Below the pieces are notes generated by a model, which searched no databases, had not been told where the DNA came from, and was given only the letters and a program-made list of their open reading frames with translations. A program made the translations under genes and the position numbers. A DNA stretch of 51,616 nucleotides from a virus, in the IMG/VR virus record IMGVR_UViG_3300046313_000435, positions 1 to 51,616 of that record. One strand, written 5' to 3'. This document shows, piece by piece, positions 1 through 51,616 of this stretch; the first letter of the stretch is position 1, and each line of letters begins with the position of its first letter.

Positions 1-1159
1 CAGTTAGGCCAGCAGCTTGAGTCAGTGCTGTTAGTCGCTTGCCTGCATCAGACTTACCCGACCCTGATTCGCCGAGGGCTAACGTCATGTGGTTGGTTCT
101 CAATCCTCGCTCAGTCTGAACCCTATGACCCTTGAGCGTACCAACAAATGCCAAGGCCGCCGCAAAAGCGAAGTGTGGTTGGTACCGTGTGGCGTTGTCG
201 GTTATCCAGTCAGCGATTGCACCAACTAGCCCAGGGGCTCCAGTTACAAGAGACTCAGGGACCGAGCCTACTACACCACCGCCATACTCTTCCTCTTGAT
301 GCTCCGTGAGTGAGGAGATGTCCACCGGAGGGGCCGCGTTCTTTCGAATAACGTATGAAACGATATCCATGATTTCTTGCTTTGGCTTTGGTGGCTTGCA
401 GGTAGTTTGATTGATACCTTGAACGAGGAAATACACCTCTTCGAAGGACATGTCCCTACGTGCGTATCGCCCAGCATATCGGATTAAAGCATTGTGCCTC
501 TGAGAGGGCTCAAGAGACATGTTTACTACTTCGGATAACTCGGGGAGTTCTCCACCCTCGTAAAACAATTCTTCAAGCTCAGCGATACCAAGCCCGCCGA
601 TAATTGTATCGAGCTTATAGGGTAAGAAGTGCTCAAGGTGCATGGTCTTTACTTTCCAGGGGTCACCCTTAAGGTGGTAGAAACCAGGGATACGCATCAC
701 CCGAGGAAGGTCGTGTATAGAGGGGTCACCCTTAAACTTCATGGCAATAGCGTTCTGTAGTGCTGAGAATCTTTCTAGTGGGCAATCGGCTACCAACCAG
801 AACACCTGATACTTCCCCGGAGAGGATTCAATGATTGCATGAGGGGTGAACCCTGTCTCTAGAACTGGCTGTAATGGTGAGCCATCAAGGTCAAGGAACA
901 ATGCCCTCACTGATGTAATGTGCTCAGTAGATCGACCACCCACGGATTCATTGACAGTAAAGTAAATGCCGTAGCCTCTGCTCTGTCGTTCCATGAACCA
1001 GGGGAGCATATCATCGAGGTCGCCTTCCTCATGGCCGGCAAGGATTCGCTCACCCTTTCTGCGGTCGCAGAAGGATTGAAATCGGTGAAGCATCCCTTCA
1101 CCTAAAAGGTCCAAGAACCTGCGAGCCTCGTTGAGGTCAGGGGCAAGAGTAGCATTCAT
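1..1159 (-). CDS. Primase-helicase, 3' end beyond left edge
   Basis: An open frame runs from an ATG at 1159 leftwards to the window edge without a stop (386 complete codons). The N-terminal half looks like a RepB/AEP-type primase: FLDLDG near residue 90 fits the metal-binding DxD motif, followed by SSPGKYQVFWLV and, near residue 155, LPRVMRIPGFYHLKG. This resembles the RepB-type 'RlPG..N.K' motif. Near residue 360 LALGESGSGKS is a Walker A loop, so a helicase ATPase domain begins here and continues outside the window. It probably primes and unwinds phage DNA at replication. It lies 15 bases behind the small HTH gene and is probably co-transcribed with it. The ATG has no good Shine-Dalgarno sequence. 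Confidence 0.82.
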   Translation of the reverse strand, partial: MNATLAPDLNEARRFLDLLGEGMLHRFQSFCDRRKGERILAGHEEGDLDDMLPWFMERQSRGYGIYFTVNESVGGRSTEHITSVRALFLDLDGSPLQPVLETGFTPHAIIESSPGKYQVFWLVADCPLERFSALQNAIAMKFKGDPSIHDLPRVMRIPGFYHLKGDPWKVKTMHLEHFLPYKLDTIIGGLGIAELEELFYEGGELPELSEVVNMSLEPSQRHNALIRYAGRYARRDMSFEEVYFLVQGINQTTCKPPKPKQEIMDIVSYVIRKNAAPPVDISSLTEHQEEEYGGGVVGSVPESLVTGAPGLVGAIADWITDNATRYQPHFAFAAALAFVGTLKGHRVQTERGLRTNHMTLALGESGSGKSDAGKRLTALTQAAGLT

Positions 1160-9795: not shown

Positions 9796-10088
9796 CCCCA
9801 GACAGCCTTAACCCCGACAAGGTGCGGTACTACGTTGAGAAAGGATTGCTTTCGAAACGCATCGACCAACAGCCCGAGAGATTACTGTCGGAGCTTGTGA
9901 TGCCACCACGCACTATAGCGTTTGCCATACTTGAGGACTGCCGGCTATCGGATGTGTACAACGAGGAGATGGCTGAAGAGTTCGCGAAAGAGTTGCTCGT
10001 TAATCGCGAGTATTACCGAGTTACAATCAGGGCGAGCGAAGTGGACGAATGGGCTAGGGAATGGAGGTTTGATAGAGGGATATGCTGA
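9792..10088 (+). CDS. 98-aa protein, first of tandem pair
   Basis: A GTG start overlapping the previous TGA. It shares with the next gene the blocks KVRYYV..GLL.KRID, PPRTIAFAILEDCRLSDV, MAEEFAKEL and EYYRVTI...EVD.WA. The pair is clearly a tandem duplication, and both copies have 98 residues. No known family; probably soluble and mixed helix/strand. Confidence 0.58.
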   Translation: MTPDSLNPDKVRYYVEKGLLSKRIDQQPERLLSELVMPPRTIAFAILEDCRLSDVYNEEMAEEFAKELLVNREYYRVTIRASEVDEWAREWRFDRGIC

Positions 10089-10378
10089 CTAACAGCCTCG
10101 ACCCCAACCGTGTGCGGTACTACGTTCAGATAGGGTTAATCTTAAAACGTATCGACGAGACGGAGAGAATACTTGCAGACCTTGGGCTGCCACCACGGGG
10201 AATAGCCCTTGCGATACTGGAAGACTGTAGGCTTTCCGATGTGCACAATGAGGCGATGGCTGAAGAATTTACAAAAGAGCTGGGCGTTAGTGGCGAGTAT
10301 CACAGGGTAACGATTACGGCGAAGGAAGTTGACGGATGGGCTTTTGCGTGGAGGTGCTATAAAGGCTATGACGACTAA
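10082..10378 (+). CDS. 98-aa protein, second of tandem pair
   Basis: ATG at 10082 within the end of the first copy. Shared blocks are RVRYYV..GLILKRID, PPRGIALAILEDCRLSDV, MAEEFTKEL and EYHRVTI...EVDGWA. By eye well over half the residues agree with the first copy. The stop overlaps the start of the next gene. Function unknown; the duplication could provide dosage or divergence for binding two targets. Confidence 0.58.
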   Translation: MLTNSLDPNRVRYYVQIGLILKRIDETERILADLGLPPRGIALAILEDCRLSDVHNEAMAEEFTKELGVSGEYHRVTITAKEVDGWAFAWRCYKGYDD

Positions 10379-15027: not shown

Positions 15028-15271
15028 GCCGCCAGAGGATTTTGGTAAGGTCGGTTGCGACGGCTTCGATCCATTCTTCGCTTTTTGTCCAGTCGGACGC
15101 GTGGAGGATTTCGTGGATGGTCGTGTCGAGCGTTTGCTTCTCACTCAGTCCTTTTCGGATGCGGATAACCCGCCCAGGCTCGTTGGGGTCTTCGCAGTTG
15201 CCGAGGGTATTCTTTCCCAGATAGGGAACGAACCGGACCTCATACCTTCTTCCCAAGATGGTGACATGCAT
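14990..15271 (-). CDS. Small HExxH metalloprotein, 93 aa
   Basis: ATG at 15271 behind AAGGGCAGGGT. The centre reads TTIHEILHASDW, an HExxH zinc-peptidase signature, with a second-half helix EWIEAVATDLTKILW. Very short phage proteins with this layout (SprT/ImmA-like minimal gluzincins) are frequent; the N-terminal part MHVTILGRRYEVRFVPYLG is a beta hairpin. It could cleave a repressor or be a non-catalytic metal protein. It is downstream of integrase and attP and overlaps the phosphoesterase frame. Confidence 0.62.
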   Translation of the reverse strand: MHVTILGRRYEVRFVPYLGKNTLGNCEDPNEPGRVIRIRKGLSEKQTLDTTIHEILHASDWTKSEEWIEAVATDLTKILWRLGYRKQKDNVDN

Positions 15272-15450
15272 ACCCTGCCCTTGAGGCTAAGGGTAACACG
15301 AGACGGGGAGGGCCTGGCTAGTAGGGAAAGTTACCCTTTCTTTTTCCACCCCCTGGACACTTGGCGACTCACAATCCGGGTCAGCAAAGGGCCGTACATG
15401 CTCGAATACGCAGGCACTGCCCCGCAACCCTTATTTTCAGAAACGAAAAA

Positions 15451-15471
15451 AGCCCAGGAATTTCCTGAGCT
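15451..15471 (-). terminator. Intrinsic terminator beside attP
   Basis: On the minus strand AGCTCAGGAA and TTCCTGGGCT form a near-perfect stem followed by TTTTTTCG. It lies just downstream of the tRNA fragment and may be the host tRNA terminator carried along, or end integrase transcription. The plus-strand copy is followed by TTTCTT, so it may act both ways. Confidence 0.7.
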
Positions 15472-15497
15472 TTCTTGCCGGTGCGACCGGATGCTTA

Positions 15498-15545
15498 GCT
15501 CCCCCGGGTGGGCTCGAACCACCGACACACGGATTAACAGTCCGT
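15498..15545 (-). other. attP: attP: 3' half of tRNA-Asn(GTT)
   Basis: Read on the minus strand: ACGGA-CTGTTAA-TCCGT is an anticodon arm with anticodon GTT, followed by GTGTC, a T arm GGTGG-TTCGAGC-CCACC and an acceptor strand CGGGGGA plus discriminator G. The D arm and the 5' acceptor strand are absent; the sequence 5' of the anticodon arm is unrelated. A 3' tRNA fragment next to an integrase gene is the classic phage attachment core that rebuilds the host tRNA on integration. Because phage genes lie on both sides, this is attP and not a prophage end. Confidence 0.82.
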
Positions 15546-15607
15546 TGTGGCGTACCAAAAACTGAGGAAAAAGCAGTATAGCAGAGAAGGGCGACTCATA
15601 ATCCGGG

Positions 15608-16711
15608 TCAGCCTGTTTTTTTCGGATTTGTTGCCTTGCCGAACGCATCGCTTGAGATCATTAGGTAATGGTCTTCAGAGACTTGGACGCTATGGCCCAC
15701 CCAAGATGACACGGCATGAGCAGGACAACCCAGGTCAATCATGTGCGTTTCGAAGCTACGACGAAGGGTTTGAAAAGCATCCTCCCACATATCCAGCCCC
15801 GCCTTCTCAACGATCTTTGGCAGCTTCCTCCGCACGTTGGAGTACGAGGTTTCCACCACCAGGTCCCCCGTAGCGGCATCTTTAGCAGCAAGAAGTATCG
15901 GGAAGAGCTCCGCAACGATGGGGCAAACCCGCTCTTTGGTTTTGCCGGCGGCAATTCTAATGCTCTTCTTTTCCAGGTTGATGTCGGTCCAGGAAAGGGT
16001 GAACAGCTCCGATGGCACCCTAAGGCCCGCATACCGCCCAAGGCCAACGATAACCCGCCAGGGTAGGCTAGGACATGCCTTGATAAGCTTAATCGCATCC
16101 TCGGGCGTTACATAGTGCCTGACCGATGCCGCTACCGCCGTTGTCTTTAGCTTTCGGCAGGGGTTAACCTCAATCCACTCAAGGTCGCAGGCGTAATCAA
16201 AGAGCTGCTTAGCGTATCGGTTCAGGGTCCGGGCGTAGGCAAGGCTTCCACCGGTCTCGAATACCCAGGACTCAAACGCCGAAGCATCGGCTACGGTAAA
16301 GGACTCCACGGCTTTTGACTCCCCGAACTTCTCCACGAGCTTACCGAGGCTCTGACTCAGTTTACCAATGGACCTGTTCGCCAATGATGGGGTCTTCAAT
16401 CTGGTAAACCGCTCAATGAGCATTTTTAGAGAGTGTTTTCCGTCGCCCTTTTTCGCCCTTGCCGCTGTTAACCCAATGGTAATCAGCCGATCAAGAAGAA
16501 CGTCCCCGTCCGGTAGGCTGCCGAGCCATGAAGCCACTTCGCTATCCGGCGAGTTACCCGATAGTTTACAGGCAGCAAGGTGCTCCACTCTTCGTAGGAT
16601 GGTTTCGGCTTGCTTCTTCGGGGTTCGCCCCAATCTTATTTTTGGGCGAGCATTGCCGATCACAACCATTATCACCCGCAACCCGTCCGCACTTGTACTC
16701 AATGAGGCCAT
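15608..16711 (-). CDS. int: Tyrosine-recombinase integrase
   Basis: A 367-residue integrase starting at ATG 16711 (MASLSTSADGL) behind AAGGAAAACAAG; a longer frame to 16759 has no ribosome site and crosses the terminator. Catalytic blocks are GLRVPSELFTLSW (first Arg), TLRRSFETHM (second Arg), SSWVGHS and the DHYL tyrosine. The N-terminal arm (IRLGRTPKKQAETILRRVEH) and the 'LRRSFET ... GHS' style match integrases that I know mainly from Planctomycetota. It ends about 60 bases from attP and inserts the phage into tRNA-Asn. Confidence 0.9.
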   Translation of the reverse strand: MASLSTSADGLRVIMVVIGNARPKIRLGRTPKKQAETILRRVEHLAACKLSGNSPDSEVASWLGSLPDGDVLLDRLITIGLTAARAKKGDGKHSLKMLIERFTRLKTPSLANRSIGKLSQSLGKLVEKFGESKAVESFTVADASAFESWVFETGGSLAYARTLNRYAKQLFDYACDLEWIEVNPCRKLKTTAVAASVRHYVTPEDAIKLIKACPSLPWRVIVGLGRYAGLRVPSELFTLSWTDINLEKKSIRIAAGKTKERVCPIVAELFPILLAAKDAATGDLVVETSYSNVRRKLPKIVEKAGLDMWEDAFQTLRRSFETHMIDLGCPAHAVSSWVGHSVQVSEDHYLMISSDAFGKATNPKKTG

Positions 16712-16730
16712 CTTGTTTTCCTTGGTTCGC

Positions 16731-16763
16731 AAAAAGAAATGCGGGCGGCAACTTGCCACCCGC
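16731..16763 (-). terminator. Terminator between mobilization operon and integrase
   Basis: On the minus strand GCGGGTGGCAA-GTTGCCGCCCGC folds into a stem of about eleven pairs and is followed by ATTTCTTTTTGCG. It separates the relaxase operon from the integrase gene, so the integrase probably has its own promoter or relies on readthrough. Confidence 0.75.
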
Positions 16764-16791
16764 TTGAATGAACTTTAGGGCGTTACCCTTG

Positions 16792-17145
16792 CTAGGCAAC
16801 GTACTGCTCTTCTTCGCAGTAGTTCAGCATCACGTCATCAACCAACATCGAAGCAAGTTGTGCCGCGAGGCTTCTTTTGAAAAACTCTGCCTTATCGCGA
16901 TAAGGCTGTGGGATCTGCTCATAATCGACCAGCCGCGAGAGCAGGAGGTCGCCTAGCCGCCCCTCGCTGACATGCTCCTTTAGCAGCTCATGGGCTTTGG
17001 CTGCCAAAATTCGAGCAAAGGTCATCTCGGGCAATAGCCCCCGCTCTTCTGCCGCTTTCCATAGCTGTGCATGGTCCGCATGAATCTCATCGAGCCCTGC
17101 CTCAAATGCCGAGCGTACACCAATCCAATCAATAATACTTGTCAT
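16792..17145 (-). CDS. 117-aa helical protein, last gene of mobilization operon
   Basis: ATG at 17145 overlaps the TGA of the HTH gene. The protein is largely helical and charged. Its start, WIGVRSAFEAGLDEIHADHAQLW, resembles that of the 144-residue protein at 17404-17838 (WTEVQKVFDSGLGEV...AHWNKVAE), and both end with SL.A.LASML/V.-type helices, so they appear to be diverged paralogues flanking the HTH gene. Role unknown; an accessory relaxosome or partition protein would fit the context. Confidence 0.52.
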   Translation of the reverse strand: MTSIIDWIGVRSAFEAGLDEIHADHAQLWKAAEERGLLPEMTFARILAAKAHELLKEHVSEGRLGDLLLSRLVDYEQIPQPYRDKAEFFKRSLAAQLASMLVDDVMLNYCEEEQYVA

Positions 17146-17474
17146 CTCAAATCCCCTTTTGTCTCGCTGGTGATGTCAATGCCGTCCAAGGTCAGCGAGT
17201 CGTAACCTTGGGGGCATGGTGAATGAACTGTATCTAATGAAGTCCGTGAGGCAATGAACGCCTCTAGTGCGCTTAGGCTGTAACGCTTACACGTTCCAAT
17301 TCTGATGCAAGATATCTCTCCATCGTTAACCAAAGACCATAGCGTTCGCTCTGAGATGCTCAACAATCGAGCCGCATCCCTGCTACAAACCAGCAGCCGG
17401 TCATCAAATGATGTCGGTATCGCCGCACCCTGGGCATTGTTGCCGTCGGATTTGTTCGAGGTACTTTTCTTCAT
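17142..17474 (-). CDS. Excisionase-type HTH protein, 110 aa
   Basis: ATG at 17474 after GGGAGATCC. Residues about 28-75 read LLVCSRDAARLLSISERTLW, LVNDGEISCIRIG and YSLSALEAFIASR, the MerR-like/excisionase winged HTH used by phage Xis and plasmid regulators. The flanks are low-complexity. It overlaps the 144-residue gene by 71 bases and the 117-residue gene by 4. It could be the recombination directionality factor for the nearby integrase, or an operon repressor or relaxosome protein binding near oriT. Confidence 0.72.
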   Translation of the reverse strand: MKKSTSNKSDGNNAQGAAIPTSFDDRLLVCSRDAARLLSISERTLWSLVNDGEISCIRIGTCKRYSLSALEAFIASRTSLDTVHSPCPQGYDSLTLDGIDITSETKGDLR

Positions 17475-17838
17475 CGCTTGGATCTCCCATCTTGGTAAAC
17501 TCAATAAGCCCCTCGACCAAAACACTCGCAAGAAACGCGCTCAGGCTTTGCCCTTTCATTCTGGCCCGAGTCTCATAGGTGGTCGGAAACCATCCAAAGT
17601 CGCAAAGCCTCGACTCGATTGCAAAGGCAATGTCATGCTCGTCTAGTACAACGTTGCCGCTCTTTGCAGCTATGACAACATTGCCGCTCTTCGTAGCGTC
17701 CCTCGACAACTTACGAGCCACAACAACGTCAAGCCGATACCCAAGGTCTTCGGCTACCTTGTTCCAGTGGGCTTTGTTCTCAAAGACTTCGCCCAGTCCA
17801 GAGTCAAAAACCTTTTGCACTTCAGTCCAGTTTGTCAT
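17404..17838 (-). CDS. 144-aa protein, coupled to coupling ATPase
   Basis: ATG at 17838 overlaps the TGA of the coupling-protein gene. The N-terminal half is related to the 117-residue protein (see 16792-17145). An insertion repeats the unit KSGNVV twice (ATKSGNVVIAAKSGNVVLDE), and the C-terminus carries CPGCGDTD, a CxxC pair. Tight coupling to the ATPase gene suggests a partner protein of the transfer machinery, but no family is recognised. Confidence 0.52.
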   Translation of the reverse strand: MTNWTEVQKVFDSGLGEVFENKAHWNKVAEDLGYRLDVVVARKLSRDATKSGNVVIAAKSGNVVLDEHDIAFAIESRLCDFGWFPTTYETRARMKGQSLSAFLASVLVEGLIEFTKMGDPSDEEKYLEQIRRQQCPGCGDTDII

Positions 17839-19124
17839 TTCAATGCCTCAATCATTTCGCTAGTAACGTGGATACCGAGACGACCGAGATCACCGACGGT
17901 CATTCGGGGTAATACTTGATCACTATCGGGCCGCAACGTTCTCGCTGCGGGCTCCTTACTCAGGGTGACATCATCCCGAAAGCGGCAATCAAACTTGCCC
18001 GACTCATCCGGGAAGTCGAAGTAGCCCTCGATGCGGTCCTTGGCGTAGTTTGCCTTCTTCAAACACTGCCGCAATTCATCCGGCAACACGTTGGGCCGCA
18101 TCTTGACTGACTTATGCTTGTCATCAATCTGTTCAACGACCTCAACGGCCCCAAGGCAATCACTGGCAAACTTAGCGGTCTTAACGCCGTTAATCTTGAG
18201 GAACAGTTTGTAATCGGCAGCGGATAGGATTGTGTCGGTTCTTTCCTTGCCGAACCTCCCCTCCACCATCGATACTTCATGGGCGGTCAGGCAGGTGGAG
18301 ATTCCACTCTTGGCTCCGCGTACGATGTTGTGCTCGATGCAGTCCAATGGCTGCAATGTTGCAAACTCATCAATATCGAAAAGCACAACTTCCTTGCTCT
18401 GCCGTGAGAGATACCGCGTTGAGGTATAATCGAACAGGAACGCGAACACCTTATCCAACGATGCCGCGTATTCATCCGACCATTCCAATACCAATACTCC
18501 ACTTTGTATGGGAAGCGTTATTCGCTTCTTGCAGGTCATATCGATAGCAGCAAAAACACCCAACGGCCCGAACCTTGAAACGAGCGTCACCTGGGTATCT
18601 CGCTTACTATCGTTACCGCCGAACACCCCATAAGGATTACCGAGATCAGCCGCTACGCTCAAAAGAGTTTGCAATGTAGGGTTGCACGTTATCCGCACGA
18701 TGTCGGCAAGCAATGCTTTACCTGGTGCGAGCTTGTGCAACAACGCCGTGCAGTTCTCGATCATAAGCCTGCACATCGATTGAAAGAACTCGTCCTTTTG
18801 GTCTGCAATCGAAGGGCTCAATTTACTCGCAAGGAGCTGCCGCCCCGTAGCGGTGGTTATCATGCTCGCAAAATCAATCCCAACACCATCAGCGTATTTC
18901 GTGCTGACGGTGTATATCGGTGTCCCTTTCGGCGCTTTGTCGAGGTACCAGTCATACATCTCATGGGCATTGTCCAAGGTGTACACAATGGCACCACCGT
19001 TAACGTAGTCCCTACGGATACGCTTCAGCAGTGCCGACTTGCCACTTCTCGGGCTACCGAGGATGAGCACACGAAGCGGGCCATCGTTGGTGTTGAATGT
19101 GTGGTCTCCTAGTCTGATTTTCAT
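17835..19124 (-). CDS. VirD4/TrwB-type coupling ATPase without membrane anchor
   Basis: A 429-residue P-loop ATPase. Walker A is GSPRSGKS (23-30), Walker B VVLFDIDEF (246-254). After it, RGAKSGISTCLTAHEVSMVE, then KTAKFASDCLGAVEV, follow the order of TraD/TrwB/VirD4 coupling proteins (gRK.G ... Q.S.. ; tA...s..lG..ev). Coupling proteins hand the relaxase-DNA complex to a secretion channel. Unlike TrwB it begins at the ATPase core with no N-terminal membrane helices; two small membrane proteins are encoded directly upstream. The ends overlap both neighbours by four bases. Confidence 0.82.
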   Translation of the reverse strand: MKIRLGDHTFNTNDGPLRVLILGSPRSGKSALLKRIRRDYVNGGAIVYTLDNAHEMYDWYLDKAPKGTPIYTVSTKYADGVGIDFASMITTATGRQLLASKLSPSIADQKDEFFQSMCRLMIENCTALLHKLAPGKALLADIVRITCNPTLQTLLSVAADLGNPYGVFGGNDSKRDTQVTLVSRFGPLGVFAAIDMTCKKRITLPIQSGVLVLEWSDEYAASLDKVFAFLFDYTSTRYLSRQSKEVVLFDIDEFATLQPLDCIEHNIVRGAKSGISTCLTAHEVSMVEGRFGKERTDTILSAADYKLFLKINGVKTAKFASDCLGAVEVVEQIDDKHKSVKMRPNVLPDELRQCLKKANYAKDRIEGYFDFPDESGKFDCRFRDDVTLSKEPAARTLRPDSDQVLPRMTVGDLGRLGIHVTSEMIEALK

Positions 19125-19390
19125 AGCGGCCTACCTCGGATGTTCTTATACTTCGGCATGTCGCCGATGATTACACCCCACACGAGAGCGCCAAAGATTG
19201 CGGATGCAATTCCAAAGTTGCGACTTTCGTTGTGGTCGAAACCGAACCAGCTGAAGGCTAGGTAAGCTGGAACGGTAAACACCGCTGCAACAAACGTCAT
19301 GATGATCGCTCCAACAATCATCCTGAATAGCCAGTCAACGATGTATATGAAAGGGCTGATGAACAACGCCCAAAGGAATTTCAATATCAT
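19121..19390 (-). CDS. Small membrane protein, 89 aa
   Basis: ATG at 19390 (MILKFLWALFIS) after AAGGAAGAAAGGG. Three hydrophobic segments follow each other: an N-terminal one, IVGAIIMTFVAAVFTVPAYL and FGIASAIFGALVWGVIIG. The basic tail KYKNIRGRPL would be cytoplasmic. The stop overlaps the start of the coupling ATPase. The position and size suggest that it could supply the membrane anchor missing from that ATPase. No family recognised. Confidence 0.6.
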   Translation of the reverse strand: MILKFLWALFISPFIYIVDWLFRMIVGAIIMTFVAAVFTVPAYLAFSWFGFDHNESRNFGIASAIFGALVWGVIIGDMPKYKNIRGRPL

Positions 19391-19392
19391 CT

Positions 19393-19623
19393 TTAAGACC
19401 CTTTCTTCCTTGCGACATAAATACCGCAGCCCGTAGCGAAATATGCAATGGACCAGGAAAGCCACTCCGGTGGCTCCGCTCTACCAAAGCAAAGCACTAC
19501 CGGAACCACTGCAATGAAGACTACGAACATCCCAACCTCTAGGACGACGAACGATAGTACGAGCCATCGCCACAGCGTGATTGCTGCGGACCTGCCGACC
19601 TTGTATAAGGCTTCTTTTTTCAT
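19393..19623 (-). CDS. Small membrane protein, 76 aa
   Basis: ATG at 19623 overlaps the relaxase stop (ATGA), with AGAGGTCAG upstream. The protein begins MKKEALYKVGRSAAITLWRW, has a long hydrophobic segment (VVLEVGMFVVFIAVVPVVLC) and a second one near the end (SIAYFATGCGIYVA) before RKKGS. It is co-translated with the relaxase and followed after two bases by a second membrane-protein gene. A membrane tether for the transfer complex is a reasonable guess. Confidence 0.6.
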   Translation of the reverse strand: MKKEALYKVGRSAAITLWRWLVLSFVVLEVGMFVVFIAVVPVVLCFGRAEPPEWLSWSIAYFATGCGIYVARKKGS

Positions 19624-20927
19624 AACGACTGACCTCTTTTTTGCTCTTGCTTCTCCCACAACTTCGGGCCGATGACCTTCACCGACCACCCATGCTTTCT
19701 CGCCAGCATCCGTAGCTGGTCTTCTTGTTCTTCGGTCTTAATCGCCTTGCCGCGAATGATGACCTTGGTACCTTTTGGCAACGTTAACTTTGGAACCCTG
19801 GCCAACTTGAATGCCTTCTTGCCTATCGCGAGAGCGTGGTCCAATGAATCGCACTTTGTTCGTCGTATCGCTGTAATTGCTGCACGATGGCCGGTCATGG
19901 ATGTTGGTTTGCTAACGTCCTCAACGAATTGATCGAGGTTACGCACCCTGACCTTTTCCTGCCCTTGAGCTTTGACAATCGCCCAGGCTTTGACAGCCCG
20001 CACAAAAGGCTCCTTGATGAGGTCTTGATAAATGCTTTGCCAAAAGCCCCTTGGTTGTTCGAGCTTCTGGGCCTGGCCGTCGTTGGCAAAAACCTTTGCC
20101 CACTTCTTTGATTCTTCGCGAATGTCGAGATTCTTTTGCTTCTTTGGTCGCGTATTCTTCAGGGCGTAGGCCAACGTCTTACCCTTTTTCGGCAGCTTCC
20201 TGCCCTTCTTAACCTCCTGTTCCTTGATGTACTCTATTGCCTTTTCTTTCCGCGCCGTTCGATTAAACTTATTCGTGATGCCCTTGGCGATTGCCTGCTC
20301 TGACTTATCATCGAAGTCCATTGCAAAGCCCGTAGCCTTTTCAAGGCTGCCGCAAAGGTCGATTTGCGTGATGCGATTGTCAGCCTTGATGTTGTGAAAC
20401 GCGGGCCGAGCGTCCAACGTTCTTATCTGCTGTGTCTCTTTAACGATACACTTGTCAGCTATGAATACATGGACGTGGTACGATGCATGGCCTTCACGAG
20501 TCGAGGCGTGAACCATGCTCACAGCTAGAAGCTCGCACTCTTTCTTTACTGCACCACCTGCCCCAGTGCGGGCCGCTAATCTTTGCTCCAACCTATCAAG
20601 CAGCCTTTGCACCACTGGCTTGATGCCTTCATGCACCGCCTTTTGTTGTCCCTCCCAGGACATCATCGCCATGGCTTTGGATACCGAGGGCGATAGAAGA
20701 ATTGTGGCCTCAAGGAAAGCCATCTTGTTTAGCTGAGCCGTCTTCGATATTGGCTCGCCATTGGGCATAAGCCCTTTCGAATACTGAATGATGTGAAATG
20801 GATCGGTAAAATCGATGCCTAGTTTGTCGGTGCCATCGGTGCCGAAAATGCCAAGCTGCAAAGCCTCTTTGATGACTTCTTTTTCTCGGAGGTATTTGCC
20901 ATCGTTGTGGTTGTTGAGCTTGAGCAC
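19620..20927 (-). CDS. MobF-type (TrwC/TraI-like) relaxase
   Basis: A 435-residue protein. VHASTREGHASYHVHVF carries His140, His151 and His153, the same 11+2 spacing as the metal-binding histidines of TraI (146, 157, 159) and TrwC. Upstream, LEATILLSPSVSKAMAMM fits the relaxase 'tfs.PKSvS' block, and Tyr12 is the candidate nicking tyrosine (only one is near the N-terminus; TraI has a pair). There is no helicase domain; the C-terminal third is basic. It should nick and hold one strand at an oriT. The start is GTG with a weak ribosome site, only about 24 bases after a terminator. Confidence 0.85.
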   Translation of the reverse strand: MLKLNNHNDGKYLREKEVIKEALQLGIFGTDGTDKLGIDFTDPFHIIQYSKGLMPNGEPISKTAQLNKMAFLEATILLSPSVSKAMAMMSWEGQQKAVHEGIKPVVQRLLDRLEQRLAARTGAGGAVKKECELLAVSMVHASTREGHASYHVHVFIADKCIVKETQQIRTLDARPAFHNIKADNRITQIDLCGSLEKATGFAMDFDDKSEQAIAKGITNKFNRTARKEKAIEYIKEQEVKKGRKLPKKGKTLAYALKNTRPKKQKNLDIREESKKWAKVFANDGQAQKLEQPRGFWQSIYQDLIKEPFVRAVKAWAIVKAQGQEKVRVRNLDQFVEDVSKPTSMTGHRAAITAIRRTKCDSLDHALAIGKKAFKLARVPKLTLPKGTKVIIRGKAIKTEEQEDQLRMLARKHGWSVKVIGPKLWEKQEQKRGQSL

Positions 20928-20950
20928 GGCATAGGGCTTTCAGGGTGGAA

Positions 20951-20976
20951 GAACGAAAAAGGGGACTCCGTTCCCC
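20951..20976 (-). terminator. Intrinsic terminator in front of relaxase gene
   Basis: On the minus strand GGGGA-ACGGAG-TCCCC is followed by TTTTTCGTTC. It closes the structured region upstream and stands about 24 bases before the relaxase GTG, so relaxase transcription would need readthrough or a promoter hidden here. Confidence 0.78.
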
Positions 20977-21775
20977 AAGAACAATCAACGTGTCGAACTT
21001 TCGAGCACGTTTCGCACGTATGCCGAAACTGGCATACCAGCAACACTGGCGAGCCCCCCAAGCCTTTCGCGTAAAACCATCCGGGTATCTTGCTCATTGT
21101 TCCATTCCTGGTAACACACTAAGCAAGCAAGCTACCCACATCCTCCTAGGTGGTCTCTGTCCTACTGTCCGAATGACAATGCCCGACCGCTGCCTTGCAG
21201 TCTGACGACACGCTAAAACTGAGATGAACCTTTGGACTCCGCCCGTAGTCGCTAACAACCTCCTTTCTTTCATACGGTTGCGTTGTACACGAGACGCGCT
21301 TTACGACTCCCTAGAACCATTACGCCTGAGCGTGGGAGTCGCTCCCGAATTGATGCCGGACGTCATGCGGTAGTCATGTCGCTATTAGCAGTTACGCTAA
21401 GTGGCGAGCGAGTCACCACAAGGATTCCTCCCCGCGATACTCACCCCGCATCGTGCGGGCTTTCATCGACTCAACGAGCAAGCCACGATTACCGATCTCG
21501 CTCGTCCGATTCGCAATTTGGCACCATCTCTATCCGCATTTACCCCAATGCCTTACGCTACTCACCACCGAGCGTCACCGCTTGATGGCTCCAGTTCAGG
21601 GCAAGGTAACGCTCTAAAGGCCCTCCCTCTAAAGCGTCCCCTCGTCACGGTCCTTCCGTGATTCGTCCGACACTCCATCGTCGCAACAAAATCCTGCACG
21701 GCTTTTATTTTCCTTGCACCCGCCGGGCACCTCTCGATGCAAACGGGCGCGACCTAAGTTTATGTTGATAGTTAC
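20951..21775 (-). ncRNA. Large structured non-coding RNA candidate
   Basis: About 825 bases without a convincing gene. The minus strand is packed with perfect hairpins: at 21714-21742 (TTGCA/TGCAA), 21646-21660 (CACGG/CCGTG), 21445-21459 (CCCGCA/TGCGGG, 3-base loop), 21401-21419 (7 pairs), 21385-21400, 21334-21346 (GGGAG-CGA-CTCCC), 21037-21049, 21018-21037 (GTATGCC/GGCATAC) and 20989-21009, ending with the terminator at 20951. Size, phage location and terminator recall GOLLD or ROOL RNAs, but I cannot confirm a family. It may also contain oriT or an origin, since it sits between relaxase and transglycosylase genes. Confidence 0.6.
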
Positions 21776-21805
21776 GCGACACCTTGAGGATCGCACATCA
21801 AGGGG

Positions 21806-22402
21806 CTAACCGTACATCTTGGAAGCGACGGCCAGGACATTATGAGCATATAACCTACCCTCCGGCCCAAGGTCTTTGATGATGCCCTTGAGGGACTTTG
21901 CTTTATTCTTTGCGAGAAGGTTATCCACCCTCCCATAACCTTGGTTGTATGCGGTCAAAGCCAGCTCTTTGTCACCCTTGTAATAGTCGATAAGGTGCCT
22001 CAAATAAGCCGCCCCGATAAAGACATTCTGCCTGTGGTCGAATGGATTGTATCGACCACCTACGTTCAATCTCGCGTGCCACTCTCTGCCCGTCCCGTCA
22101 AGCAATTGAGATAGGCCCTTGGCCCCGACCGGACTGACCGCGTTAGGATCTTTACCGCTCTCGATTCTCACAAGTGCATGCACTAGACTTCTAGGGATGC
22201 CCTGCTTATCTGCTGCCTGGTTGATAGCGGCATCGATAATTGAAGGTGGTGCTTTCGGCTTAGTCCCCCACCCTCTCAGAAGGTCATACTTCGCCTTACC
22301 CGATGGCAGTTGCCCAACTCCAGAAACTCCAGAGTTGGGCGTCAGGAAGACGAAGCCGAGTAGTCCGGCTGCTATAAGTAAGCCGACATCCTCGGAGGCC
22401 AC
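21806..22402 (-). CDS. Membrane-anchored lytic transglycosylase
   Basis: GTG start at 22402, overlapping the upstream stop. One N-terminal membrane helix (VGLLIAAGLLGFVFL) is followed by an SLT domain: RIESGKDPNAVSPVGAKGLS with catalytic Glu81, then LNVGGRYNPFDHRQNVFIGA and LALTAYNQGYGRVD. It cuts peptidoglycan in the periplasm. Next to the relaxase operon it could play the VirB1 role of opening the wall for a transfer channel; in a phage it could also aid entry or lysis. A CCTTGA/TCAAGG hairpin follows the stop. Confidence 0.8.
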   Translation of the reverse strand: MASEDVGLLIAAGLLGFVFLTPNSGVSGVGQLPSGKAKYDLLRGWGTKPKAPPSIIDAAINQAADKQGIPRSLVHALVRIESGKDPNAVSPVGAKGLSQLLDGTGREWHARLNVGGRYNPFDHRQNVFIGAAYLRHLIDYYKGDKELALTAYNQGYGRVDNLLAKNKAKSLKGIIKDLGPEGRLYAHNVLAVASKMYG

Positions 22403-22677
22403 TATTTACCCTTCCCTTGAGCAGCAGAAGCTTTGCCGCTGCTCATTGGGTCAACGCCCATCACCTGTGATTGAAACATGATGTAGCAGGTCACGAGGCC
22501 TGAAATCATGAATACGTGAATCACCGTGGTAATTAGCCCCGATAGACTGAATATGTTGTCCTTCACTCGCGTCATCAGTGTTGGGCCATCTGACGAAAAG
22601 AGCTTCTTAGTAACTATGAAGATCAAAGCGCCTACCGCTAGGGCTCCAATCAGTTCTTGTAGTGGTATAGTTCCCAT
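22402..22677 (-). CDS. Two-helix small membrane protein, 91 aa
   Basis: ATG at 22677. Two hydrophobic segments, LIGALAVGALIFIVTK and LITTVIHVFMISGLVTCYIMF, flank a polar stretch; the C-terminus is small and basic (KASAAQGKGK). The size and two-helix layout are like pilin or holin subunits. It is coupled to the transglycosylase gene. Neither identity can be shown; I favour a membrane pore or channel component. Confidence 0.55.
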   Translation of the reverse strand: MGTIPLQELIGALAVGALIFIVTKKLFSSDGPTLMTRVKDNIFSLSGLITTVIHVFMISGLVTCYIMFQSQVMGVDPMSSGKASAAQGKGK

Positions 22678-22752
22678 AATTCTTAATCTCCAAACGTAAG
22701 GTTAGCCCACCGCGCAATTGCGGAGCAACCACGAAGTGGGCTTGTTTAGTAT

Positions 22753-23022
22753 TTACGAGCCGTTAGCCTCGTCTGCTGTTGCTGCTGGCTCTGCCTGGGG
22801 ACACCTCGAAGGCATCACATAGCAGATAATCGGCTTACCTGTCCTGTACGTTTCCTCCTTCACCTCTCTCTTGGTAACCGAACGATGCCCCACCGTGAGA
22901 TGGAACTCTCCGAGCCCGTTCTGGTCCATCAAAGCACACCCCGACGTAGTCACCATAATCAGCCCGCAAACAATCGCCAAAAGTGCGTAGTGAATGAATG
23001 TATCCTTCTCAGCTATTCTCAT
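22753..23022 (-). CDS. Small lipoprotein, 89 aa
   Basis: ATG at 23022 behind GGAGGGTTTTAAA; a longer in-frame start has no ribosome site. A signal sequence (IHYALLAIVCGLIMV) ends in the lipobox TTSGC, so Cys would be lipidated. The mature part has RTGKPIICYVMPSRCPQ with two further cysteines. The outer or inner membrane is the expected location. It is close to the transglycosylase, reminiscent of VirB7-type or spanin lipoproteins. Confidence 0.65.
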   Translation of the reverse strand: MRIAEKDTFIHYALLAIVCGLIMVTTSGCALMDQNGLGEFHLTVGHRSVTKREVKEETYRTGKPIICYVMPSRCPQAEPAATADEANGS

Positions 23023-42750: not shown

Positions 42751-42759
42751 TTATCCCCA

Positions 42760-43524: not shown

Positions 43525-43551
43525 TCAGCCCCATAAGAGATAGCAGTCAGT

Positions 43552-44753: not shown

Positions 44754-44755
44754 CC

Positions 44756-46088: not shown

Positions 46089-47444
46089 TTACGCACGAGT
46101 TGCAAGTGCTACATACGACCCAAGAGTGTCAGAACCCTTGAACGGTGTGAGAACACTGCGCTCTGCTGGCTGTCCATCTGCCCGGTAAACAAACCGGAAA
46201 GCCGTCTCGCTCTTCTCGAACGCTACGTGGATGGACTGAGCTGCTTTGACTCCACCCTTATCGATCCAGAGGTACTTCTTAGGATTGATAAGCATGATAT
46301 CGCCAACAGTTCCGAGGGCCGCACACTGCTCTAGTGCAAATGCTGGGACACCAAGGATTGTGCTTACTGGTACTGAGCCAGCAACAGAACCCGTGATACC
46401 ACCCGGCAGGAACACTGGGTATGTGTTAGAACCAACAGTCAGAGAGAGGGTCATGAGTGCTGACTTAACGCCGGCATTGTAAACCCAAACTGCTGAACCC
46501 ATATCCTCTTCGTGCAAGCGAGCAAACATCTTGGCAAGGTTGATTGCATTAAGAGTTGCAGCAGCCTGCCCCGCCTCTTTTGCTACCGAAACCAAGCCAG
46601 TTGCGTGCTGAAGAATACCGAGGGGCATTCCTGCTCCAGTTCCGTTGATTACAGCATCGTCAATCTTGAACCCGAACTCACGACCGAACGCACGAGTGAT
46701 GAAGGCTTCCATTACTGGAGCATCTTCAATCAGTTCGTCTGTTAGGAAGCAAAGCCCTGTGAGCTTCTTAAGCTTCAACTCAATCTTACTGAGTTTTGAC
46801 TTGCTCTTTGTGTAGGTATCAGCCTCACCTTCCCAATATGCCTGAATACCACCAGCACGAGAACCATCAGCACGAGAGGATTCGTCAACACTTGGGAAAG
46901 ATATCCCGTTTGACTGAGAAGTGATGCCGTATCGATCAACTCGACCAGCCAACTTCCCTGTCTCGTATGCTTTCTCAAGAAGAACGTTCGACCCGTCCTG
47001 CTGAATCAAGTATCCGCCCTCAGCCATGATGGACTCTTGGAGTCCGGTAGCTGCACGCATAATCTTGTTCGACAGTTCGAGCTTCTGAGCAACATCAGAG
47101 TTACGAAGTGTCATTGGCTCAACTGCAACACGCTTAACGGCCATGAGCTGCTCGCCCAAAGAACCCCAAACTTTGCAGTTACCGTTCTCATCTTCGCCCT
47201 CAGAGCGAGTAACTTCAGTGTGAAGTGCCTTCTTAGTAGGCTTAACTCTCTCTTGGTTCTCTTTAGCGAGCTTCTCAGCACGAGCGATGCTTCGCTTTAC
47301 TGTCTCAAGCTCTACTTCAAGAGTATCGAAATCCTTTGCTTCATCCTCAGAAACATTACGCTTCTCTTTCTTTGCGAGGTCTGAAATCGCGTTCATGCGC
47401 TCCAGAATCTCGCTATATCTTGATTGCAACAGTTCTAAATCCAC
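46089..47444 (-). CDS. HK97-fold major capsid protein
   Basis: 451 residues from GTG 47444 (after TGGGGATTT). The first about 100 residues are a charged coiled-coil delta domain (KKEKRNVSEDEAKDFDTLEV; VETVKRSIARAEKLAKE-like), expected to be removed by the prohead protease. The capsid core has EGGYLIQQDGSNVLLEKAYE, ELIEDAPVMEAFITRAFGRE, GTGAGMPLGIL and LINPKKYLWIDK, a typical HK97 gp5 pattern with a C-terminal FRFVYRADGQP. It forms the head shell. Confidence 0.92.
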   Translation of the reverse strand: MDLELLQSRYSEILERMNAISDLAKKEKRNVSEDEAKDFDTLEVELETVKRSIARAEKLAKENQERVKPTKKALHTEVTRSEGEDENGNCKVWGSLGEQLMAVKRVAVEPMTLRNSDVAQKLELSNKIMRAATGLQESIMAEGGYLIQQDGSNVLLEKAYETGKLAGRVDRYGITSQSNGISFPSVDESSRADGSRAGGIQAYWEGEADTYTKSKSKLSKIELKLKKLTGLCFLTDELIEDAPVMEAFITRAFGREFGFKIDDAVINGTGAGMPLGILQHATGLVSVAKEAGQAAATLNAINLAKMFARLHEEDMGSAVWVYNAGVKSALMTLSLTVGSNTYPVFLPGGITGSVAGSVPVSTILGVPAFALEQCAALGTVGDIMLINPKKYLWIDKGGVKAAQSIHVAFEKSETAFRFVYRADGQPAERSVLTPFKGSDTLGSYVALATRA

Positions 47445-48267: not shown

Positions 48268-49881
48268 CTAACTATAGCTCAAGACCCTCTCGGTCCAACA
48301 CCCGCCAATTTTGCCCTCATCCCTCTCGTACCCAAGGGCCGGATCTTTCATCCACTTCTCAACGCCCGCTCGAATCTCAGAAACGTACTGCTCGATGGGC
48401 TCTTTAATATCCCCGCCCACACCAGCGAGCTGGGTGTATCCGCTAAATATTTCAGAGAGGCATCCTTCCGCAAAACTTCGATGCTCATTGATGAACTCTT
48501 CGAACCAAGACCTGAATTCTTCACTGGTTTTTTTCTTCGCTGCACTCTTTATAGCTCCCGCCTCTTTGCGAATCACACGGGTCCAAGCTTCTTTGAGCGG
48601 GCCACGGAACGCTGCCCTAACTTTGTCATCTTCCTCGGTATCGTCCTCAACTTCGGGCTCTACTTTCACGGGCTCCTGTCCCTCTTGCCCCGCCGGCACC
48701 ATGTTGAGCGGCGAAAGGTAGACATCACCCTCCGGCCCGATAGGATTCATGTTCTCTTTGGCTCTAATATCGTTAGCAGAGAGCCATCCCCACTGCCTGC
48801 CGGCTGTATAAGCCTGAGATCGGGCTGTCATATCGCCTCTTAGTAGGCCATCGAGTAGGAATTCTGCGAAGAATTCACGGTCATCACCATCAAAAAAGTC
48901 CCTTGTTATGGCGTCTTCCCACATTCTGAACCAAGGAAGGAGGCAATAAGTGACGAATTCTTGGCCCTGCTGCTCGATATTTGAGAACGAAGACTTGGTT
49001 AAATCAGCCAACATATGGGGCGGAACGCGGTAAATTCGGGCTATTTCCTCAATTTGGAAGCGTCTTTGCTCTAAAAACTGGGCATCTGCCTGCGGAATAC
49101 CCATCGGCTTCCACTTCAATCCGGCTTCCAGTACCGCTACTTTCTTCCCGCGATTCACTCCGCCGTGGAGCTCCTGCCAGGAGTTGCGTAAATTCGCCCT
49201 TGCCTCTTGCGACATCTCGCCCGACTCGTACTCCAGCACGCCAGCAGGAAAAGCCCCGCCTTCGAAGAAGTTAGTACCGAAACTCTCTAAGCTGAGCCCC
49301 ATTTGTATCGCTTGCTTCGCTGCCGAGATAGGACTCAAGCCTTCGAGCCCCGAATCACGATAACCTCTGAGGTGGAACACGTCTTCAGGCGCTAAAACAG
49401 CCTCGCCCCCGCCTTTTATTCGAACCTTATAGACCAAGCCCGCTTCTGTAAGGTCAGGCTTCACTCTTGATGGGTGCAGCGGATGCAACTCGAGCACCTC
49501 GCCCGCCTTGTTTCTTAAAATCTGAGCGTACGCATTGCCCCAAAGTAGCACGTGAGCCATGAGCATCTGACGAAACTCAACGCCCGACGTCTTCATGTTG
49601 TTGGGCTTGGTTCTCAAAACCTTAAAGAGAGGTAGGTTCGATGCTTTTTTCTTCTCTCTCTCGCCCACTCTTTGGTAAATGTTGAGCGGTACCGACGCCA
49701 CGGTCTCTGAAATAATCTTTACGCAAGCAAAAATCGCGCTGAAAGCTAGTGCGGATTCAGGAGTAACAGGCACTTGGTCGCCAAGATAGACGTATGACCC
49801 GCCTGAGAATGCGCTATCGTTAGTTACGGCAACGCTTCGTTTGGTTGCTGTGAATGGAAGAGTTATCCCGAAGAGCTTCAT
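48268..49881 (-). CDS. HK97-type portal protein
   Basis: A 537-residue portal protein: AFSAIFACVKIISETVASVP, QMLMAHVLLWGNAYAQILRN, FHLRGYRDSGLEGLSPISAA and FRMWEDAITRDFF are the family blocks. After about residue 410 there is an acidic linker (EPVKVEPEVEDDTEEDD) and a charged C-terminal extension of about 110 residues not seen in the shortest portal proteins. It forms the dodecameric DNA gate and docks the terminase. Confidence 0.92.
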   Translation of the reverse strand: MKLFGITLPFTATKRSVAVTNDSAFSGGSYVYLGDQVPVTPESALAFSAIFACVKIISETVASVPLNIYQRVGEREKKKASNLPLFKVLRTKPNNMKTSGVEFRQMLMAHVLLWGNAYAQILRNKAGEVLELHPLHPSRVKPDLTEAGLVYKVRIKGGGEAVLAPEDVFHLRGYRDSGLEGLSPISAAKQAIQMGLSLESFGTNFFEGGAFPAGVLEYESGEMSQEARANLRNSWQELHGGVNRGKKVAVLEAGLKWKPMGIPQADAQFLEQRRFQIEEIARIYRVPPHMLADLTKSSFSNIEQQGQEFVTYCLLPWFRMWEDAITRDFFDGDDREFFAEFLLDGLLRGDMTARSQAYTAGRQWGWLSANDIRAKENMNPIGPEGDVYLSPLNMVPAGQEGQEPVKVEPEVEDDTEEDDKVRAAFRGPLKEAWTRVIRKEAGAIKSAAKKKTSEEFRSWFEEFINEHRSFAEGCLSEIFSGYTQLAGVGGDIKEPIEQYVSEIRAGVEKWMKDPALGYERDEGKIGGCWTERVLSYS

Positions 49882-49944: not shown

Positions 49945-51616
49945 CTATAACACCGTGAGACCACGGGACTCGTAGGGGTTGACCACGTTTAGCCGAAGAG
50001 TTGCTCTACCAATTCCCATAATCATCGCCACCACTCCATCAATTCGTTCTGCGCTCTTCTCTTTATCGGCCTTGACGTTTCCTGCCGGGTCCGATTTGAC
50101 AGAAACGTTGTCGAACATCCACTTCAACACGGGGTTGCCATCATGCCTGAGCTTGGCACTCATAACTAAAGCCTCTGTTGCCTTCATGGGGGCTGAGAAA
50201 CTTGCAAAACCTTGCCGCACTTCCATCACCTTGAGTCCGTCCTCCTCTTGTAGTTGCTGCAAGAGCTGAGTCGCATTCCACGGGTCGGCTGCAATCTCTC
50301 TAATCTTGTAAACTTTTGAGAGTTGATTGATCTTTTCTCGTAGAAACCGATAGTCAATCACGTTGCCAGGTGTTGCCTCGATGAAGTTCTGAGATATCCA
50401 AAGAGGATAAGGCACCCGGTCCCTACGAGCCCTTAGTTCTGCGTTCTCTTTAGGGACCCAGAAGAACGGAAGCACTCTATAACAATCATTCTCCCACGGG
50501 AAAACGAGCACAAACGCTGATAAGTCGGTAGTTGTAGAGAGATCTAGGCCCGCATAGCACTCTTTTCCGTACAGTTCCGAGGGGTCGAAGTCCTCTTTGC
50601 AAGCGTCCCACCGCTCAACTGGTATCCATTTTGAGCGGCTATTACACCAAATATTGAGGCGTTTTGTCTTAAAATTGTTCTGTGCAGCGGGTATTTCCTT
50701 CGCTTTATTAGCAAGATCTCGCAGTTCTTCTATGTTTACTGACACCCCGAGGTTCGGATTGCTCTTAATCCATAAGGATTCATCGAGCCAGTTATCACCT
50801 TCGTCTTGTGTGTAGATCAGCGGGAAGTATGCATCATCATCCCTGATACCTTTTAGTACCTGCTCGCCGTGGTGTCTGAACTCTAGGGCGATAGAGTCAC
50901 TAGTGTTGATACCGGCAGTGGTAATCATCCACATCATGGGCTGCTCGCGGGCTCCCATACCTGTCTCGATAACGTCAACCACACCACGATTGCGATGGGC
51001 ATGAACTTCATCGATCAAGCCGGCTGAAGGCGAGAGACCATCGAGTGTGTTGAAGTCTGCCGATAGGGGTTCAAACTTTGAGAAGCTATCAGGCACGGAT
51101 AGGTTGTTGCGAAACGCCTGCACCATACGCGAGAGAAAGGGGGAGGTCTTAACCATCCTCTCTGCTGCGGTATGAATTATCTTCGCTTGGTCTCTAGTTG
51201 TTGCAGCGCTGTAGACCTGAGCACCGGCCTCGCCATCAGCGATTAGAAAGTAAAGCCCGAGGCCAGCAGTCCAACTTGATTTTCCATTTTTTCGGGCCAC
51301 CTCAATGTAGGCTCTTCTGAATCGCCTGACATGAGTATCTTTTCGCTTCCACCCGAACGGAACCCAGAGTGCAAACTGTTGCCAGTCCTCAAGCTCTATC
51401 TTTTGCCCAGCCCACTTACCCTCGATGTGGTTGCAGAACTGAAAGAAGTCGATAACCCTTTGAGCTGCATCAGAGTCGAAGTAATACGAGAAGTCTTCGT
51501 TCGCAAGATCGCGAACATGCCGCTCAACCGCTAGGCGAACAAACTCACAGACGAGAATCCGACCGCCAATGACATCATCAATGTATCGCTCTGCCGGATG
51601 GCGTTTATTTTTTGCC
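49945..51616 (-). CDS. Terminase large subunit, 5' end beyond right edge
   Basis: The frame is open from 49945 to the window edge with no start needed at 51300, because coding sequence continues upstream (ALWVPFGWKRKDTHVRR, then AYIEVARKNGKSSW). ARKNGKSS is the terminase Walker A, LIDEVHAHRN the Walker B, WMITTAGINTSD the C-motif area. In the nuclease domain CYAGLDLSTTTDLSAFVLVF gives the first metal-binding Asp. HK97/lambda-type TerL that cuts and pumps DNA into the head. The missing N-terminus lies outside the window. Confidence 0.93.
   Translation of the reverse strand, partial: AKNKRHPAERYIDDVIGGRILVCEFVRLAVERHVRDLANEDFSYYFDSDAAQRVIDFFQFCNHIEGKWAGQKIELEDWQQFALWVPFGWKRKDTHVRRFRRAYIEVARKNGKSSWTAGLGLYFLIADGEAGAQVYSAATTRDQAKIIHTAAERMVKTSPFLSRMVQAFRNNLSVPDSFSKFEPLSADFNTLDGLSPSAGLIDEVHAHRNRGVVDVIETGMGAREQPMMWMITTAGINTSDSIALEFRHHGEQVLKGIRDDDAYFPLIYTQDEGDNWLDESLWIKSNPNLGVSVNIEELRDLANKAKEIPAAQNNFKTKRLNIWCNSRSKWIPVERWDACKEDFDPSELYGKECYAGLDLSTTTDLSAFVLVFPWENDCYRVLPFFWVPKENAELRARRDRVPYPLWISQNFIEATPGNVIDYRFLREKINQLSKVYKIREIAADPWNATQLLQQLQEEDGLKVMEVRQGFASFSAPMKATEALVMSAKLRHDGNPVLKWMFDNVSVKSDPAGNVKADKEKSAERIDGVVAMIMGIGRATLRLNVVNPYESRGLTVL

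Follow-up and report, generated by a model that had tools for sequence, protein, structure and literature searches.

Type IV coupling proteins (T4CPs) without a transmembrane domain (TMD), exemplified by TraJ of pIP501, form a recognized subfamily, and some of its members work with small membrane proteins (PMC7434980). Mobilizable elements that bring their own coupling protein have also been reported, such as CloDF13 (PMC7431656, PMC11389934), as have hitcher elements encoding both a relaxase and a coupling protein (PMC11389934). Among phage-related elements, mob genes or an origin of transfer (oriT) are reported in PMC10879196 as absent from all but two of the P1-like phage-plasmids considered there and as present in most of the plasmids derived from them. 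The locus described here lies in IMG/VR record IMGVR_UViG_3300046313_000435 (positions 1-51,616; 51,616 bases, hereafter "the window") and places a MobF-type relaxase gene and a coupling ATPase gene in one operon inside a temperate HK97-type siphovirus. No siphovirus with a relaxase and a coupling protein is described in the titles and abstract starts returned by literature searches, which covered open-licence papers. The parts are known, the combination is new, and it is shared by three divergent genomes.

Seven minus-strand open reading frames (ORFs) stand in a row from 20927 to 16792, with the integrase gene next, at the place where an earlier reading of the letters (the preliminary description) had put a seven-gene operon. 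In the order of transcription, they are:

19620..20927, minus strand: predicted MobF-type (TrwC-domain) relaxase, 435 aa, with Tyr12 and His140/151/153 (Pfam TrwC, Foldseek, motif alignment)
19393..19689, minus strand: predicted small membrane protein, 98 aa as listed (hydropathy); an ATG at 19623 would give a 4-base overlap with the relaxase gene
19121..19465, minus strand: predicted small membrane protein, 114 aa as listed (hydropathy); ends 4 bases inside the coupling-protein gene
17835..19124, minus strand: predicted TrwB/VirD4-type coupling ATPase, 429 aa, without an N-terminal TMD and with Walker A GSPRSGKS at 23-30 (profiles, hhalign, hydropathy, motif)
17404..17838, minus strand: accessory protein, 144 aa, family not assigned; paralogue of 16792-17145 (29% identity, E 9e-13)
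17142..17531, minus strand: predicted HTH_17/excisionase-like DNA-binding protein (Pfam HTH_17 4.2e-10; phrog_66 3.6e-5)
16792..17145, minus strand: accessory protein, 117 aa; paralogue of 17404-17838

Two further phages carry the relaxase and coupling-protein genes close together. One (IMGVR 3300034200_001057, here G002) was found by a terminase scan and has a terminase 80% identical to that of the window; the other (IMGVR 3300042691_036206, here G004) was found by a portal scan, with a portal 57% identical over 300 residues. Their relaxases are 31% (G002) and 23% (G004) identical to that of the window, and their coupling proteins 40% and 31%. A six-frame search with the TrwC profile exceeded the cut-off in all three genomes, at 53.9 bits in G002. 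Whole-record comparison showed the genomes to be largely collinear, with the block at the same place in each, between the exonuclease and transglycosylase genes. G002 is probably complete, since the ends of its record agree in 134 of 135 bases. The G004 integrase lies on the opposite strand and is 26% identical over 194 residues to that of the window; the integrase has therefore been swapped, with the relaxase/coupling module retained. Each of the three phages has an HTH_17 gene downstream of its coupling-protein gene: in G002 the two overlap by one base, in the window one gene separates them, and in G004 two to three ORFs do. The gene pair, which the preliminary description had suggested seeking in other phages, is thus present in these two; among 50,697 phage records, none matched the relaxase and coupling protein of the window at E 1e-3.

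The relaxase assigned to 19620-20927 in the preliminary description was borne out, as was the TraI-like spacing of its histidines. The protein matches Pfam TrwC at E 3.1e-19 (70.1 bits, cut-off 25), and His140, His151 and His153 share alignment columns with His146, His157 and His159 of F TraI and R388 TrwC, numbered from the annotated starts. The same triad is intact in G004 (His145, His156 and His158). Tyr12 aligns with the N-terminal tyrosine pair of TrwC/TraI and is invariant in the three phage relaxases. When a low-confidence AlphaFold model was submitted to Foldseek, all 26 matches at E<=1e-3 were MobF relaxase or relaxosome entries, the next match standing at E 0.15; VIA-align gave Z values up to 11.8 with 179 residues aligned and an rmsd (root mean square deviation) of 3.5. 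The trans-esterase domain fold of MobF relaxases is recognizable in that model. A phmmer search against the PDB returned no solved structure at E<=1. Profile, motifs and model together indicate that 19620-20927 encodes a divergent MobF-type relaxase, which resembles TrwC (R388) and TraI (F) in its TrwC/HUH domain, three-histidine spacing, N-terminal tyrosine and predicted fold. Unlike those proteins, it is 435 aa long and has no helicase domain (no helicase match in Pfam).

The ATPase at 17835-19124, also proposed earlier as VirD4/TrwB-type, matches TrwB_AAD_bind (3.2e-15) and TraG-D_C (3.7e-13), both above the Pfam cut-offs. Alignment to TrwB/TraD by hhalign covered 318 columns (E 5.7e-18, probability 99), and phmmer against the PDB retrieved TrwB at E 0.021. 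Walker A begins at residue 23 in the window protein versus 130 in TrwB, and the highest 19-residue Kyte-Doolittle mean is 1.22, with 1.67 at residue 215 in G002 and 1.35 at residue 128 in G004. Walker A GKS and Walker B DE are invariant across the three coupling proteins. The profiles and hydropathy identify the product as a VirD4/TrwB-type coupling protein lacking the N-terminal TMD. The two small membrane proteins placed between relaxase and ATPase in the preliminary description were recovered as well; both have strongly hydrophobic segments, their membrane character being predicted from hydropathy alone. By the same measure, G002 has one such protein between relaxase and ATPase, and G004 has one there and another after the ATPase.

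A coupling ATPase without a TMD whose gene adjoins genes for predicted small membrane proteins is the arrangement of TMD-less T4CPs, and in anatomy these are the closest match to the window protein: a cytosolic VirD4-type ATPase with small membrane protein genes adjoining, pIP501 being compared by description only. Unlike the TMD-less T4CPs as presented in PMC7434980, the window ATPase lies beside a MobF-type relaxase, in a siphovirus, with no VirB4 match. CloDF13, whose coupling protein is MobB, and other hitchers share with the window a relaxase, a coupling protein of their own and no type IV secretion system (T4SS). CloDF13 differs in being a plasmid of the MOBC1 family whose coupling protein, according to PMC7431656, needs its TMD.

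The remainder of the window is a phage genome. Profile searches identified a large terminase, portal, head protease, HK97-type capsid protein, head-tail adaptor and major tail protein, together with a distal tail protein, central fibre, transglycosylase and endolysin; the tape measure match was weak (3.3e-6). Terminase, portal, head protease, HK97 capsid protein, major tail protein and integrase, the genes expected of a temperate HK97-type siphovirus, are all encoded. The principal features are:

49945..51300, minus strand: large terminase subunit (TerL_nuclease 1.6e-60, phrog_9 2.3e-158)
48268..49881, minus strand: portal protein (Phage_portal 2.2e-110)
47628-48260: head protease
46089..47444, minus strand: HK97-type major capsid protein (phrog_10 2e-38, phrog_80 7.9e-49)
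15608..16759, minus strand: tyrosine integrase, directly downstream of the operon (Pfam Phage_integrase 6.6e-12, phrog_1 5.4e-32)
15499..15568, minus strand: tRNA-Asn(GTT)-like sequence, putative phage attachment site (attP) core (Rfam tRNA, 28.0 bits versus a gathering score of 29, E 0.016)

The window stops short of the terminase N-terminus, which a second record (IMGVR 3300046314_000453, here G001) contains; G001 is collinear with window 8935-51616 (42.7 kb) with one gap and extends past the window end with the start of the terminase gene and additional ORFs. Another metagenome, 3300046328, also yielded fragments of this phage, none of them covering the module. The siphovirus part of the element as first described, with its head, tail and lysis genes and integrase, therefore holds by profiles, and its union with the relaxase/coupling operon in one element is supported by the protein families and the two syntenic relatives; the attP stands only as plausible, its tRNA-like sequence scoring below the Rfam threshold. 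ARAGORN called no tRNA gene at 15499..15568, the GTT anticodon being read by eye, and the best match to this sequence in plasmid-collection records was 84%. It is perhaps the attP core, and integrase and attP-like sequence point to prophage integration.

For machinery that would carry DNA between cells, VirB4-type profiles were the T4SS genes searched, across whole records. PF03135 matched 0 of 4 records at E<=1, and PF19044 matched 0 of 4 above cut-off, with one chance-like match of 10.8 bits. As no record matches VirB4, the phages appear to have no mating channel of their own, and a self-transmissible conjugative element was rejected on the same result. A relaxase and an integrase with no VirB4-type match are the gene content of a mobilizable element or integrative and mobilizable element (IME). 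The likeness to IMEs extends to integrase, excisionase (Xis)-like gene, relaxase, coupling protein and the missing VirB4; unlike IMEs, the window has genes for virion morphogenesis, packaging and lysis. In PMC10879196, mob genes or oriT are likewise reported in phage-related elements, namely P1-like phage-plasmids and plasmids derived from them, whereas here phage genes and module coexist in three siphovirus-lineage genomes with integrases.

We favor the reading, at a probability of roughly 0.5, that a temperate HK97-type siphovirus lineage carries a built-in mobilization module that needs a helper T4SS. The module would comprise a possible ribbon-helix-helix (RHH)-like protein, the MobF relaxase, one or more small membrane proteins and the TMD-less coupling ATPase; an excisionase-like gene follows it downstream, and the integrase gene is nearby. 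We infer the functional steps of transfer as follows. The helix-turn-helix (HTH)/Xis-like protein would promote prophage excision. The relaxase, perhaps with the RHH-like protein, would nick one strand at an oriT and remain bound through Tyr12, as fold and residues suggest. The coupling ATPase, anchored to the membrane through the neighboring small membrane proteins, would dock the relaxase-DNA complex on the T4SS channel of a co-resident conjugative element and pump the strand out. In the recipient the strand would recircularize and the integrase would insert it. By the virion route, the same genome would also be packaged by its own terminase. Xis-like and integrase genes nearby fit use of the module after prophage excision. 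The earlier suggestion of one element that can be packaged into virions and also processed for conjugative transfer is borne out as to gene content; the transfer itself is conjectural, as no oriT was recognized and no record matched VirB4.

Several results weigh against this reading. Some concern the relaxase. Profile checking, proposed at the outset for the MobF assignment, gave the Pfam TrwC match but fell short with NCBIfam MobF (E 4.6e-17, 62.5 bits, cut-off 100), and the protein is accordingly named MobF-type and not a typical MobF. It differs from TrwC and TraI further in that a single N-terminal tyrosine aligns, the second tyrosine pair of TrwC/TraI having no counterpart, and in that the Asp of the motif DLTFSAPKSVS has no clear counterpart. 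The G002 triad has Gly in place of its first histidine, and default hmmscan reported TrwC for the G004 protein and not for the G002 protein. Comparison with TrwC/TraI by hhalign reached a probability of 61.5 (E 7.8e-5). The AlphaFold model of the relaxase, built from three sequences, has a mean pLDDT (predicted local distance difference test) of 54, and that of the coupling protein, at 38, is too poor for use. Other adverse points concern the surroundings. Scanning for inverted repeats that might mark an oriT close to the relaxase gene turned up nothing distinctive in the three genomes. The 44-aa RHH-like ORF upstream of the window relaxase has no Pfam match, and RHH matches of ORFs at the corresponding place in G002 and G004 lie below the Pfam cut-offs. 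Two pattern scans of a genome collection, which reach few distant relatives, found no prophage relative, and the module is carried by three genomes only.

The breadth of the searches bears on that last count. Portal relatives number at least 588, of which 80 loci at about 41-50% identity were kept and 36 records (8.8-60.9 kb, many of them fragments) were searched for TrwC and the coupling profile; the other 44 of the 80 loci, all on contigs of <=13.5 kb, were left unsearched. None of these 36 records with a more distant portal matched TrwC (the E. coli control was positive), and none matched the coupling-protein profile, in a search with no built-in positive control. Five related fragments (5.4-12.2 kb) gave no relaxase-profile match, again with no built-in positive control. 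Among the phage records, R388 TrwB had no match and R388 TrwC matched two unannotated gut contigs. PHROGs returned no family for either protein up to E 5.

Of the competing explanations, one keeps the DNA inside the donor: the relaxase would start or process phage replication, by rolling-circle initiation or concatemer resolution, and the ATPase would move DNA there, with no cell-to-cell transfer. HUH enzymes do initiate replication, the phage has a Sak4-like annealing protein, a single-stranded DNA-binding protein and a helicase of its own, and the missing VirB4 match fits as well. The explanation is weakened because both G002 and G004 have replication proteins of the primase and helicase types, and because the primase gene of G004 can be aligned with window 2-1138; moreover, we know of no need in replication for a TrwB-type coupling protein with membrane partners. 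We regard it as unlikely, and the earlier proposal that relaxase-type strand transfer serves the phage's own replication or entry loses ground with it.

Decay offers another account, in which a remnant of an integrative and conjugative element (ICE) or IME recombined into the lineage ancestor and is now non-functional. The incomplete triad of G002 would suit such a remnant, as would fast divergence, with relaxases 31% and 23% identical against 80% for the terminases of window and G002. Yet neither reading frame is interrupted in any of the three divergent genomes, the residues GKS of Walker A and DE of Walker B have not changed, and the module order was kept though the G004 integrase was replaced, which makes this quite unlikely.

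Distinctly unlikely, in our estimate, is fertility inhibition, in which the proteins would act as decoys against competing conjugative plasmids in the lysogen, the TMD-less coupling protein and a weakened relaxase poisoning the host's T4SS or other relaxosomes. The absent TMD and the histidine lost in G002 can be read this way, and a chimeric, TMD-bearing coupling protein is described in PMC7431656 as exerting negative dominance over native ones. A decoy, however, would need neither a relaxase with its tyrosine and three histidines, as in the window and G004, nor small membrane proteins encoded beside the ATPase.

Although relaxase and coupling-protein genes are otherwise mostly found in plasmids and ICEs, a plasmid contig misassembled into a phage contig, the outcome named at first as refuting the element, is hardly credible and is excluded by the collinearity of G001 over window 8935-51616, by the block at the same place in two divergent phages, and by 72,556 plasmid records, which gave no relaxase match at E 1e-3 and, for the coupling protein, 542 records at E<=1 that were all below 60% identity. 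A recent nested IME insertion was considered separately and ruled out by the shared location of the module in three divergent phages; flanking att-like repeats were not searched.

Returning to the built-in mobilization module, its fullest form would be a "mobilizable phage": a siphovirus lineage in which a dedicated relaxosome and a split coupling protein have been maintained for a long time near the excision and integration genes, and which travels in two ways, inside virions and, in the form of single-stranded DNA, through a mating channel supplied by a co-resident conjugative element. We hold this tentatively, at somewhat less than even odds, and the same tentative standing applies to the view that such a phage is a standing virus/IME hybrid and not a broken intermediate. 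If so, a prophage might need neither a phage receptor nor the death of its host in order to spread, and phages might reach, by mating, hosts outside the host range of their particles. Relaxase-based plasmid typing and virus detection tools could then both be right on one contig. The locus would also be a natural test of which parts a coupling protein still requires if its membrane portion is a protein in its own right.

The internal layout of the operon agrees with the preliminary description, in which neighboring genes overlapped or lay a few bases apart. Taken at their listed ends, the ORFs overlap by 4 bases at three junctions and by 70, 73 and 128 bases at three others; in the translations, later in-frame ATGs would turn the 70- and 73-base overlaps into a 4-base overlap and a 2-base gap, so that starts chosen too early explain part of the larger listed overlaps. 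The three accessory genes reported after the ATPase are present and now more closely defined, one being HTH_17/excisionase-like and the other two being paralogues that flank it. Pfam gave no family for the 144-aa paralogue up to E 5. HTH_17 is not specific for excisionases, and the NCBIfam excisionase model TIGR01764 stayed below its cut-off for the HTH_17 protein. Three features border the operon:

20985..21119, minus strand: 44-aa ORF with a weak mini-RHH look by eye (sequence), 57 bases upstream of the relaxase gene
20961..20976, minus strand: terminator-like hairpin separating the RHH-like ORF from the relaxase gene
16741..16763, minus strand: terminator-like hairpin following the final gene of the operon

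MobF relaxases have RHH proteins, TrwA and TraY among them, as partners in the relaxosome; in G002 and G004 the ORF with the sub-threshold RHH match overlaps the relaxase start by 4 bases. Terminator-like hairpins in 15100-22800 numbered 13, versus 7.5 expected in shuffles. A promoter scan returned 1 site versus 6.0 expected, on the plus strand, with none promoter-like on the operon strand.

Beside the operon, between it and the transglycosylase gene, lies a candidate new structured RNA of ~450 nt (window about 21330-21790, minus strand), with counterparts in the relatives (L020:7575-7995 and L024:1640-2140, both minus strand). The stretch is common to the three phages at a mean column identity of 66% and has no conserved reading frame. 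Single-sequence folds gave z values of -4.7, -4.3 and -3.1. The consensus contains 138 pairs, 47 of them changed on both sides versus a shuffle mean of 21.6, and 0 of 500 shuffles reached 47. Such compensatory changes are suggestive of a conserved RNA structure and stop short of proof, because these three sequences also served to derive the structure. Rfam has no family for the candidate (its only match is the tRNA-like core elsewhere), and a pattern scan of the viral collection confined the motif to records of these phages. A covariance model of the 3' half matched the four records of the group and 1 of 19 others, the latter at E 0.08 and 7.9 bits.

Elsewhere in these genomes, two diverged tandem duplications were noted in the window: 9802-10055 and 10092-10342 (75% DNA identity), and 42335-42666 and 42773-43104 (73% DNA identity), the latter involving the major tail protein gene. 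Large proteins occupy the tail-to-lysis region in all three phages (window 26736-29435, minus strand, 899 aa; G002 54477-57110, 877 aa; G004 42446-45244, 932 aa); none of them has a Pfam match, and that of the window also has no PHROG match. Beyond the window end, two neighboring proteins (L007 11558-12961 and 12958-13584) look ParB-like by eye only, and one of them has a methyltransferase-like second half. G002 carries a phosphoadenosine phosphosulfate reductase-like gene (L018 18106-19263; phrog_2302, 9.1e-81).

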